A stretch of 64,000 bases of DNA. Origin: an uncultured Litoreibacter sp. (GTDB taxonomy: Bacteria > Pseudomonadota > Alphaproteobacteria > Rhodobacterales > Rhodobacteraceae). Every line of letters starts with the position of its first letter. Positions within the stretch are counted from its first letter, which is position 1. The notes under the pieces are model-generated. The model saw nothing but the letters and a program-made list of their open reading frames with translations. It searched no databases and had not been told where the DNA came from. The stretch lies in assembly GCF_947487515.1 (NCBI RefSeq), contig NZ_CANKWO010000002.1, positions 124,001-188,000 of the forward strand, read 5' to 3'. The position numbers and the translations under genes are program-made. Of the stretch, positions 35,424-59,317 are shown piece after piece.

Positions 35424-35654
35424 TTAACCGACGATAACTTCCCAACGCTTGGTTTTGGACTTCGGCGCGCATTCTTGAATGCTAACCTTGTCACCCACGT
35501 TAAACGTGTTCTTCTCATCGTGAGCCCGGTACTTTTTGGACTTACGGATAATCTTTTTCATCACTGGGTGCTGAAAACGGCGCTCAACGGAAACTGTTAC
35601 AGTTTGCTCGTTCTGGTTGCTGGTGACGACACCACTCAGGATACGCTTAGGCAT
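35424..35654 (-). CDS. rpsQ: 30S ribosomal protein S17
   Basis: [47 protein letters not shown]. Confidence 0.97.
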
Positions 35655-35863
35655 TAGTTAGCCTCCCCAGCTGCAGCTTGCGCTTTTTCGTTCAGGATTG
35701 TTTTCACACGTGCAGCACCGCGCTTAACGTCGCGCATACGTGCAGTGTTTTCGAGTTGGCCGGTGGCCTGTTGGAAGCGCAAGTTAAATGCTTCCTTTTT
35801 CAGTGCGACAAGCTCTTCATTGAGCTGGTCAGCAGTCTTCTCGCGAAGCTCGCTGGCGTTCAT
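35654..35863 (-). CDS. rpmC: 50S ribosomal protein L29
   Basis: [57 protein letters not shown]. Confidence 0.97.
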
Positions 35864-35941
35864 AGCCTTTTCCTTTTTCAAACATCGGAGGGCCCCTAAA
35901 AGAGGTCACCCTGATTCCAATGGAGTTCATGATGAAATGTG

Positions 35942-35970: not shown

Positions 35971-36118
35971 GCCCTGTCGCTGACTCTGCGCGTATATCTG
36001 TAAAATAGGGGCTTACTTGCGTCTTGGGTTACGATGTCACAAAGCGCTCTCATCGCTTTTTCCAGCAAAAGCGACTGCCGCGCTGGTTCAATTTCCCTTT
36101 GTGAGATATTGAACCGAT

Positions 36119-36739
36119 ATGACCAAAATCAGATCCCTCTTCGTGACCCGCCTCTACCAAGCCCGCCTGTCCGATCATGGCACTCCCATTGATCCTGAGG
36201 AGCTGGAGGACGAATGCCTTGGCACCGCCGAGGATGACGAGGCCGGTCAGGACTGGTGCGAGGAAAACCAATTCGCGGGCTACACCAGCTATGCGTCCCT
36301 GACGGACCTGCCGTGGCGCTCCCCGATCTTTAAGGCTGTGGTTGAGGCGCTGGACAAACACGTCGCCGCATTCGCCGCGGACCTAGAGCTGGACCTAGAC
36401 GGGCGCGAGCTGAAGCTAGAGGACATCTGGATCAACATCCTGCCCCAAGGCGGCATCCACACCTCCCACATCCACCCGCATTCGGTGATCTCCGGCACCA
36501 CCTATGTGGCCATGCCCGAAGGCGCATCGGCACTGAAGCTGGAGGACCCACGGTCGCAAATGATGATGGCCGCCCCCACCCGCCTGAAAGACGCGCGCGA
36601 AGAGATGCGGCAGTTCATCTATGTGAAGCCAGTGGTTGGTGACGTCCTGCTATGGGAAAGCTTCCTGCGCCATGAGGTGCCGATGAATATGGCTGAGGAT
36701 GATAGGATTTCAGTCTCGTTTAACTACGCTTGGGGGTGA
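36119..36739 (+). CDS. Putative 2OG-Fe(II) oxygenase (TIGR02466-type)
   Basis: DIWINILPQGGIHTSHIHPHSVISGTTYVAMPEG; GDVLLWESFLRHEVPMNMAEDDRISVSFNY. Confidence 0.82.
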   Translation: MTKIRSLFVTRLYQARLSDHGTPIDPEELEDECLGTAEDDEAGQDWCEENQFAGYTSYASLTDLPWRSPIFKAVVEALDKHVAAFAADLELDLDGRELKLEDIWINILPQGGIHTSHIHPHSVISGTTYVAMPEGASALKLEDPRSQMMMAAPTRLKDAREEMRQFIYVKPVVGDVLLWESFLRHEVPMNMAEDDRISVSFNYAWG

Positions 36740-37010: not shown

Positions 37011-37385
37011 TTAGTTCCCCGCACATTCTTCAAGCCAAAATTTGCACCAAGTTTCATTTTTCAGACCATGAGCCAAGCGTAGCTTCCTTTCAATAACGTT
37101 TCTCGCAGTGAGTGGGTCAATTTCGGCACCGTCTTCAAATTCTTCATCAAATCCCACTATGCTTAAATCAACTCGAAGTGGTCGATTGCTTTCGCTCACG
37201 ACCTCAAATACCTCCATAGAACATACATACATGTTCCTGCCAAAAATTTCTGGCAGAACGTCTAAGAGAACAGTAGTTGGCACATAGTCGGAAGAAGAGC
37301 CATCTGAGGCACTCTTAATTAGTTTGTCTGTATTCTTGCTCATTGTGAACCTTGTCTTCTTCGTATCAGGCTCATTGTTTTTCAA
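37011..37385 (-). CDS. Hypothetical protein (AT-rich orphan)
   Basis: 124-aa ORF in an intergenic slot behind repeat copy A; no recognisable domain. Confidence 0.5.
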   Translation of the reverse strand: MKNNEPDTKKTRFTMSKNTDKLIKSASDGSSSDYVPTTVLLDVLPEIFGRNMYVCSMEVFEVVSESNRPLRVDLSIVGFDEEFEDGAEIDPLTARNVIERKLRLAHGLKNETWCKFWLEECAGN

Positions 37386-37432: not shown

Positions 37433-37498
37433 CAAGAAAGCCTCAGCGGTTTCTCAGCGGGGCTTCACTATGGCTACCGATGCGGAACGCGCGTTTTC
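37433..37498 (-). repeat. Terminator + AACGCGCGTT repeat, copy A
   Basis: caagaaagcctcagcggtttctcagcggggcttcactatggctaccgatgcggaacgcgcgttttc; shares architecture and 3' half with copies B and C. Confidence 0.8.
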
Positions 37499-37527
37499 AA
37501 AAACTCACAGCCCCCGCCCGCGTCGCG

Positions 37528-38034
37528 CTAAACCTCGACGACCTCATCAGGGAACTCCGACCGCAGCTCGGCTTTTACCTTGGTCAACGCCTTGCCCAAT
37601 AGGTTCTGACCCGGCCATTCTGCCGGTGGCGTGACAGCGGCTGTCGCGGCGTCCAAGCCTATGCCCCAAATGGTATCTACCGGACTTGCCTCGACCAAGA
37701 GCTTTGCCCCCGTCTGAAACAGCTTGCGGCGCAGGCCTTTGTTTTGCCGGAACTTCGCAAGGTTGATCTGCAGGACGATCTCGCTTTTGTGGGCATCCCA
37801 TGTCGCGCCATCAAAGCCCGCCACCTTTTGGCCAAGCGCCTTTTGCTTGCCTGGATCCTCCGCCTGAAAAATTTTGGCCGCGATTTCATCGTCGTTAAAG
37901 AGCTTGGCTTTGAGGTACATCATCGCCTGCTCGGCACAATTGAAAACGGCCCCGTCTATTTCAATCTTTGACGGCTGCCACTGGCTAAAAGGGCCGGTCC
38001 AATAGAAATGATATTCGTCATGTAAATCAGTCAT
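37528..38034 (-). CDS. NADAR (YbiA/DUF1768) family protein
   Basis: FYWTGPFSQWQPSKIEIDGAVFNCAEQAMMYLKAKLFND; TIWGIGLDAATAAVTPPAEWPGQNLLGKAL. Confidence 0.88.
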   Translation of the reverse strand: MTDLHDEYHFYWTGPFSQWQPSKIEIDGAVFNCAEQAMMYLKAKLFNDDEIAAKIFQAEDPGKQKALGQKVAGFDGATWDAHKSEIVLQINLAKFRQNKGLRRKLFQTGAKLLVEASPVDTIWGIGLDAATAAVTPPAEWPGQNLLGKALTKVKAELRSEFPDEVVEV

Positions 38035-38061
38035 CCCCTCTTCTAGCCCTGAATGTGGATG

Positions 38062-38130
38062 CAAAAAAGCCCCCGCCGATGTCTCAGCGGGGGCTTCTTA
38101 ATGTCTACCGATGAGGAACGCGCGTTTTCG
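38062..38130 (-). repeat. Terminator + AACGCGCGTT repeat, copy B
   Basis: caaaaaagcccccgccgatgtctcagcgggggcttcttaatgtctaccgatgaggaacgcgcgttttcg; minus-strand terminator GCGGGGGCTTTTTTG. Confidence 0.88.
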
Positions 38131-38194
38131 TAGTAAAAGCAATGAGAGCGTCACTCGGTTGTGTTGGAGCACACCAGCAATTCAGATCCTACAC

Positions 38195-38587
38195 TCACTG
38201 ACGCTCTATGATGGTTAGGATGTAGAGTGATTGAAAAATCATCAAAATTACACCCGATATTATCATCAAGAAGCAAAGAGTGCTGAACAGAGTCGATCGA
38301 TTGGTAGCCGCTGAAAGTATGAAGAATTTAAATCCGGACGTCGTTGCATCATCCTTAAACGTATAAAGGATCATAGCTGAAAAGATCAGTATGTGTGGAA
38401 GTGCGAGCAAAACAAACCCGTGTGTGTTTACCGCAGTAGAATACTTAGACATAAGGGCACTGGGAAGTGTGCCCAAAATCACTCGCTGAGCAAGAAGCGC
38501 CACTGCAATTGAGACCGCCAACCATGCGGTCCATTTCAATAGTCGCTTGTTCAGAGGGATGGACTCAAGAGTCATGGTTTTTATCAT
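38195..38587 (-). CDS. Hypothetical small membrane protein
   Basis: 130 aa with several hydrophobic stretches (WTAWLAVSIAVALLAQRVIL, TLCFLMIISGVILMIFQSLYIL). Confidence 0.55.
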   Translation of the reverse strand: MIKTMTLESIPLNKRLLKWTAWLAVSIAVALLAQRVILGTLPSALMSKYSTAVNTHGFVLLALPHILIFSAMILYTFKDDATTSGFKFFILSAATNRSTLFSTLCFLMIISGVILMIFQSLYILTIIERQ

Positions 38588-38653
38588 TCAAATTACTAAT
38601 GGCGCGCGCAAGTCGCAATTCTCACCCAATTTATTACTTATTAATTTCCCAAA

Positions 38654-38720
38654 CAAAAAGCCCCCGCCGATGTCTCAGCGGGGGCTTCTCTATGTCTACG
38701 GTGGCGGAACGCGCGTTTTC
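38654..38720 (-). repeat. Terminator + AACGCGCGTT repeat, copy C (rplP side)
   Basis: caaaaagcccccgccgatgtctcagcgggggcttctctatgtctacggtggcggaacgcgcgttttc; near-identical to copy B. Confidence 0.88.
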
Positions 38721-38746
38721 TTGAAAACACGCTGCCTCCGCCAACT

Positions 38747-38764
38747 TCGTTCGCTAGCGAACGA
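38747..38764. repeat. Perfect 18-bp palindrome after rplP
   Basis: TCGTTCGCTAGCGAACGA, 5 nt past the rplP stop. Confidence 0.85.
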
Positions 38765-38769
38765 CGGGA

Positions 38770-39183
38770 TTACCAGTCTTCGCGTACGACGACGCGTGTT
38801 TTGATAGGCAGCTTCATCGCAGCAAGGCGCAGGGCCTCGCGTGCAACTGCGTCGTTCACGCCGTCGATTTCGAACATCATACGGCCAGGTTTGACCTTAC
38901 ATGCCCAAAAGTCCACGGAACCTTTACCCTTACCCATACGAACTTCGATAGGCTTGGAGGTCACTGGCAGGTCTGGGAAAATACGGATCCAGACACGGCC
39001 TTGACGTTTCATGTGACGCGTCATTGCACGACGGGCAGCTTCGATCTGGCGTGCAGTGATACGCTCAGGTTCAGTTGCCTTGAGGCCGTAGGTGCCAAAG
39101 TTCAGGTCTGTCCCGCCCTTTGCTTCACCCTTGATGCGGCCTTTGTGCATCTTGCGAAATTTAGTACGCTTTGGTTGTAGCAT
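38770..39183 (-). CDS. rplP: 50S ribosomal protein L16
   Basis: [53 protein letters not shown]. Confidence 0.98.
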
Positions 39184-41419: not shown

Positions 41420-41514
41420 GCTTTCTGTCTTCCGTTTTGGAGCAGCGGGACTTACCGCTGCTTGGTTTATAGGGCCCCGAAGGTCCCCGAATTAAAGTGC
41501 TCATGCGAGCAACA

Positions 41515-45008: not shown

Positions 45009-45037
45009 GTAACAACCGAGTGGGTTCTCTGCTCTCA

Positions 45038-45101
45038 TCGTTCTTACGAACGACTACCGCAGGTCACCCACCGTCGCGTTTCGCTCAGCGAAACGGCGAC
45101 G
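45038..45101. repeat. Two stacked hairpins in the tuf 3' UTR
   Basis: TCGTTC-TTAC-GAACGA (45038-45053) and CGTCGCGTTTCGCT-C-AGCGAAACGGCGACG (45072-45101) ending at the tuf stop codon. Confidence 0.7.
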
Positions 45102-59078: not shown

Positions 59079-59317
59079 GCTCGTCAAAGCCTTTCAATTT
59101 CCTCGGATATGTCACCCCGGGGCCGGGTGGCATACCACTTGGATCAAGGAGATGTGGTTCAATACTTGCGCGCCTTCCCACGGGCGTGCTCCCGAACCTG
59201 ATACCGCTCCTTAGAAAAGGCTCCAAAACAAAGCCCTCTCTGAGACGCGGAAAGCCGGACCCGGAATTAACCCGGATCCAGCCATTATTTTGACGACGCA
59301 GCAGTGCTGCGCGACAA

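Follow-up and report, generated by a model that had tools for sequence, protein, structure and literature searches.

Genes and features of the locus

We analysed a window of 64,000 nucleotides (positions 124001-188000 of its contig) from the 3.34-Mb genome of an uncultured Litoreibacter species. On the minus strand of this window, the order is rplP, copy C of a repeat, orf130, copy B, a NADAR gene, copy A, and orf124. After orf124 follow a 2OG-Fe(II) oxygenase gene (2OG gene) on the plus strand and then rpmC-rpsQ-rplN-rplX on the minus strand. The features are as follows, in window coordinates.

38770-39183, minus: rplP (ribosomal protein L16; Pfam PF00252, E 4e-55), left anchor of the putative hotspot
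38655-38768, minus: copy C, the predicted 3'UTR of rplP itself (folding; orthologous single copies behind rplP in sister species), with P1 hairpin (38747-38768), P2 hairpin (38703-38742) and terminator P3 (38655-38688)
38195-38587, minus: orf130, predicted small membrane-type protein without a match in Pfam, NCBIfam or PADLOC; resident first gene behind rplP, present also in L. albidus (69% at the amino acid level)
38130-38162, minus: stranded far arm of the P2 hairpin that adjoins the 2OG gene in other species
38063-38129, minus: copy B, a terminator preceded by the distal half of an rplP-type P2 (91% over 66 nt to copy C; L. albidus alignment)
37528-38034, minus: NADAR / riboflavin-intermediate N-glycosidase-like gene (Pfam NADAR, E 5e-49; NCBIfam TIGR02464 above its cut-off)
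37433-37532, minus: copy A, a decayed, nearly full-length rplP-type 3'UTR (alignment; 74% over 132 nt to the rplP 3' flank)
37011-37385, minus: orf124, orphan gene without a relative among 177 genomes, plasmids or viral contigs
36119-36739, plus: 2OG gene (TIGR02466), conserved within the putative hotspot
36044-36083, minus: orphan P2 hairpin with a GGCA/GAGA loop, between the 2OG gene and rpmC (model matches, species comparison)
35654-35881, minus: rpmC (ribosomal protein L29), right anchor of the putative hotspot (position and synteny)

For the NADAR gene, the ATG at 38034 is more likely to be the start than the TTG at 38064 at which the open reading frame had been called. The stop codon of this gene comes from the first bases of copy A, and the NADAR of a relative is three codons longer. 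We rejected an anti-phage assignment, as the NCBIfam anti-phage NADAR model stayed far under its cut-off; a match to the PADLOC candidate profile PDC-M42C tells only that the protein is a NADAR.

Origin of the repeats

A reading of the locus from the sequence only had described three terminator-plus-palindrome modules that separate accessory genes. The modules exist near the positions it gave: the 15-mer GGAACGCGCGTTTTC has exactly three exact copies in the genome, all at the rplP-rpmC locus, and the similarity extends past the 15-mer. With one mismatch, one copy was found elsewhere in the genome, without terminator context. The terminator stem alone also recurs elsewhere (contig position 174589), but in the genome-wide search the combination of palindrome and terminator was restricted to the rplP-rpmC locus. 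A generic family of intrinsic terminators, which had been named in advance as the finding that would undo the reading, was thus ruled out, because the combination does not stand behind other genes of this genome.

When the 3' flank of rplP was used as a query against the interval, it recovered copies B (E 6e-19) and A (E 4e-18) with the identities listed above. In gene direction, copy C consists of the small P1 hairpin right after the rplP stop codon, the long P2 hairpin, and the terminator P3. The module layout proposed before was right about the two parts but not about their order, as the palindrome precedes the terminator on the gene strand. The palindrome is likewise real, although GGAACGCGCGTTTTC is the reverse complement of one arm of the longer P2 hairpin, whose arms are GGCGGAGGCAGCGTGTTTTC and GAAAACGCGCGTTCCGCC. 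Among the three copies, only copy C contains the complete P2. Copy B runs from the tip of P2 through the terminator, and copy A from the loop of P1 to just past a degenerate terminator, so that copy A is longer than the 37433-37498 first assigned to it. Terminators had been ascribed to all three copies; B and C indeed fold as strong terminators in gene direction (z -4.4 and -5.0), but the stem of A is degenerate (z +1.07). There is no repeat copy behind orf124.

In sister Litoreibacter species, a single orthologous 3'UTR copy is located behind rplP. Copies A and B are no closer to the rplP 3'UTRs of other species than to copy C, and a terminator variant, GAGACATC, is common to B and the resident copy C and does not occur in the copies of other species. 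As judged by these alignments, the modules are shown to be predicted 3'UTRs ending in a terminator, with A and B derived from the 3'UTR of rplP. An Rfam search gave no family matches at the repeats. Known Rfam elements in the window are a Rhodo-rpoB RNA (59108-59198, minus) and an L2-Alphaproteobacteria ribosomal leader (41422-41488, minus).

P2 as a 3'UTR element

We built a model of P2 from the rplP P2 hairpins of nine relatives. The model matched about 17-37 nt behind the stop codons of tufA, tufB, ettA, lepA, gatB, and groEL (gene identities from NCBIfam) and also behind rplP in other genera, across Rhodobacteraceae. The P2 hairpins of the window are located at 45030-45061 (minus) behind tuf, at 36044-36083 (minus), and, in a derived form, in copy C (minus). 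In an alignment of 51 sequences, 14 of 17 pairs showed changes on both sides, and 96% of the cells were paired, versus 78% in shuffles and less than 48% in slid controls, in an alignment that was fitted to the model and therefore favours it. The internal loop of four by four nucleotides, GGYA/GAGA, is conserved. P2 thus proves, on comparative evidence, to be a covarying hairpin of the predicted 3'UTRs of rplP, tuf, ettA, lepA, gatB, and groEL. It matched no Rfam family, and the literature that we searched contained no description of it.

The 5S rRNA of this genome carries GGUA/GAGA, at a site that we take from known 5S anatomy to be loop E, the binding site of L25. The resemblance of the P2 loop to loop E suggests a testable idea, namely that P2 may mark a translation-linked 3'UTR regulon.

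The junction of copy B

L. albidus has the order rplP-C-orf130-2OG, and copy B, NADAR, copy A, and orf124 are all absent. Its alignment with the window genome is continuous from rplP through copy C and orf130 and diverges within the stretch CTCATTGCTTTT-CTACG. That stretch corresponds to the P2 that follows immediately after the stop codon of the convergent 2OG gene in three species, L. albidus, L. ascidiaceicola, and L. meonggei. In the window genome, the far arm of the 2OG P2 was left behind orf130, where it is fused through the loop to the rplP-type half-P2 of copy B; the 2OG gene itself lies about 1.4 kb from its stranded arm, past NADAR-A-orf124. Because the L. albidus alignment breaks there, the left edge of B-NADAR-A-orf124 can be placed at the hairpin tip within a few bases. 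The comparison shows a block that appears to have entered at a P2 hairpin, of which the left edge was mapped and the right edge could not be placed. Sliding identity of the flanks to five species, a comparison between species only, revealed no clear change of the nearest relative.

The orphan P1-P2 hairpin pair in the region of 36044-36083 is shared with L. arenae and cleanly absent in L. albidus and L. meonggei. It looks as if this pair was gained or lost as one unit.

The rplP-rpmC interval in Rhodobacteraceae

In 45 genomes of other alphaproteobacterial families, the gap between rplP and rplN was 476-728 nt, as in a contiguous operon; a gap of more than 1 kb was found in none of these 45 genomes versus 43 of 67 other Rhodobacteraceae genera. 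We collected 73 Rhodobacteraceae intervals, about 71 of them distinct, as two pairs are an identical genome fetched twice. The distance between rplP and rpmC ranged from 0.86 to 6.7 kb. The 252 ORFs in the 73 intervals fell into 141 clusters, including 119 singletons, and the 2OG gene was present in 58 intervals, in either orientation. The cargo differs in nearly every Litoreibacter species, and the interval as a whole differs in every relative examined, so that the invariance once considered as an objection does not hold.

We annotated 30 cargo proteins, all from Litoreibacter intervals; the cargo of other genera was clustered only. The annotated proteins include an acyltransferase, a sulfotransferase, a TetR regulator with a cyclase, a Fic/MazE-like pair, a Tle1-like lipase, and many unknowns. 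Neither these 30 proteins nor the window's own genes include an integrase or transposase, and the turnover of the cargo bears out the earlier proposal that the locus behind rplP acquires genes without a visible integrase. Four intervals, from different lineages, have a Fic/Doc gene in common. In Aestuariivita boseongensis, a NADAR gene lies directly behind rplP and its terminator; its product is 59% identical to that of the window and is the second closest found, the closest being in genome G013 at another genomic place. The comparison of the intervals shows that the rplP-rpmC interval of Rhodobacteraceae has the properties of a gene-exchange hotspot inside the S10-spc ribosomal operon.

Delivery by a mobile element was rejected in view of the 30 cargo proteins without integrase or transposase and of orf124, which has no plasmid or viral relative. 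NADAR matches on plasmids were all below 60% identity.

Comparable scars in other genomes

Convincing extra copies of the rplP 3'UTR were found in only 4 of about 71 distinct intervals, including that of the window. In Ruegeria atlantica HKCCD9150, a broken stretch of rplP, matching nucleotides 173-294 and 367-414 at 77-83% identity, lies behind the first cargo gene and is followed by a decayed copy of the 3'UTR with terminator; the interval contains a 2OG remnant as well. We regard this rplP remnant and terminator copy as an independent case. Two Litoreibacter genomes (G017 and G020) carry extra partial rplP 3'UTR copies inside the interval. L. halocynthiae, L. ascidiaceicola, and genome G015 carry 2OG genes that are duplicated or incomplete, and genome G009 has a short 2OG-like ORF (judged by eye).

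Extra repeats in Chachezhania and Shimia were excluded from the count, as they are a REP-like element and a generic terminator. REP-like palindromes of the form GTGGG..CCCACCCTACGG were seen in and around the rplP 3'UTR and within the interval in Chachezhania sediminis, G015, and G009.

Explanations of the array

We interpret the array as recombination scars in an integrase-free gene-exchange hotspot between rplP and rpmC, without dedicated cassette sites, and assign this reading a probability of about 0.6. The incoming DNA would be the same locus of relatives, each piece bringing the 3' end of rplP and a different first gene, and would be joined downstream of the resident rplP 3'UTR (copy C). 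One side would be guided by homology to the anchors (the rplP 3' end, the 2OG gene, and the ribosomal genes), and the other would be joined at short matches inside the 3'UTR hairpins. Each event would leave part of an rplP 3'UTR, and the outcome would be a stack of three alternative genes for the first place behind rplP, each with an rplP-type terminator before it. The vehicle may be transformation or gene transfer agents; donors, order of events, vehicle, and RecA dependence are the parts of this scheme that we infer. RcGTA-type agents, which a passage of PMC9836097 describes as well conserved in Rhodobacterales, or transformation could deliver such fragments. The occurrence of remnants of the anchor genes themselves (2OG, and rplP in Ruegeria) agrees better with homology-assisted recombination than with a specific recombination site.

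Purely local duplication, in which replication slippage or template switching at hairpins produced further copies of the rplP 3'UTR inside this genome and the genes between them arrived independently, is an unlikely account that retains some weight, because no donor was found in the searches of genomes, plasmids, and viral contigs for orf124 and because A and B are no closer to the 3'UTRs of other species than to C. Similarity of A or B to the 3'UTRs of relatives was not decisive for naming a donor. The terminator variant shared by B and C agrees with a local origin, as do junctions at hairpin tips, which are typical template-switching sites, and related hairpin deletions in genomes G002 and G012. 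However, local duplication leaves unexplained the new gene behind every copy, the NADAR behind rplP in another genus, and the rplP remnant between cargo genes in Ruegeria.

The junctions also raise the idea that P1 and P2 are structure-directed joining points, at which foreign genes would become attached to the tips of hairpins, folded or extruded, through hairpin cleavage, template switching, or some recombinase. With only two junctions at hairpin tips, a directing role of the hairpins is not proven, and we consider this idea quite improbable. It is also doubtful, to a high degree, that the array was shaped by selection for insulation, in which an rplP-type terminator is retained or acquired by genes landing behind rplP, since read-through from the ribosomal operon is harmful, and the repeats are functional 3'UTRs. 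The strong terminator folds of B and C in gene direction and the conservation of P2 in the 3'UTRs of translation genes fit this proposal, but the terminator stem of A is decayed, B has only half of P2, and most cargo of other species lacks such copies. As insulation accounts for retention and not for origin, it and the recombination-scar reading can both be true.

The uniform orientation with one gene per repeat, the hairpin-tip position of the left junctions of B and A, and the presence or absence of the orphan hairpin pair as a unit would suit attachment sites for an integron-like recombinase encoded elsewhere, possibly acting on folded hairpins, but this is very improbable given repeats that were copied from the anchor's 3'UTR, leftover pieces of anchor coding genes, no recombinase at the locus or among the 30 cargo proteins, and cargo elsewhere that is mostly not bounded by repeats. 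The same evidence, with extra copies in so few intervals, speaks against the cassette-like system with dedicated boundary sites of the sequence-only reading; its notion of repeats as boundaries survives only insofar as repeats do lie at the junctions and the left edge of B falls exactly in a repeat.

Relation to known systems

Integron gene cassettes are genes of the same orientation separated by imperfectly palindromic attC repeats. The rplP-rpmC genes share the single orientation and the imperfectly palindromic repeats, but these repeats are terminator-bearing copies of the rplP 3'UTR, arrays are not a regular feature of the locus, no integron integrase IntI was found among the locus genes or the cargo tested, and the cargo in most relatives lacks repeats, whereas each integron cassette is bounded by a recombination site. 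REP/BIME elements are short intergenic palindromes with many dispersed copies and a RAYT transposase. P2 is likewise a short intergenic palindrome, with 1-10 P2-like matches per genome in relatives and three weak model matches in the window genome; unlike REP/BIME, it is mostly found at the orthologous 3' ends of translation genes, and the window genome has its 15-mer form at this locus only.

Homology-facilitated illegitimate recombination is known from natural transformation. With one homologous side and a junction of a few bases, it would yield anchor duplications like those seen here; in contrast to it, the rplP-rpmC junctions are at hairpin tips, and the present case is known from sequence alone. 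The term is used in passages of PMC6382021 and PMC8116780.

A close parallel is the model of integrase-free hotspots of horizontal gene transfer, which is defined within species (Oliveira et al. 2017, PMC5635113). As in that model, genes turn over fast at one spot between conserved core genes, and the cargo, without integrase or transposase in the 30 Litoreibacter proteins, is highly diverse between genomes; high accessory turnover between core genes and the lack of a recognisable mobile element (in the proteins tested) are thus both found here. The rplP-rpmC case differs in lying inside the S10-spc ribosomal operon of one family, in turnover shown across species and genera instead of within species, and in the stacked anchor 3'UTR copies and anchor-gene remnants left as visible scars.

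Under our reading, a hotspot of gene exchange lies within an operon that is among the most conserved in bacteria, and it does so in only one alphaproteobacterial family among the families tested. Its nearly base-resolved scars allow testing of the joining mechanism in integrase-free hotspots, which has so far been inferred mostly from statistics. If joining at hairpins were true, a conserved RNA element of translation genes would double as an entry site for gene cassettes. For the incoming genes, the recombination-scar reading means that a gene can gain a terminator by inheriting the 3'UTR of the anchor gene.
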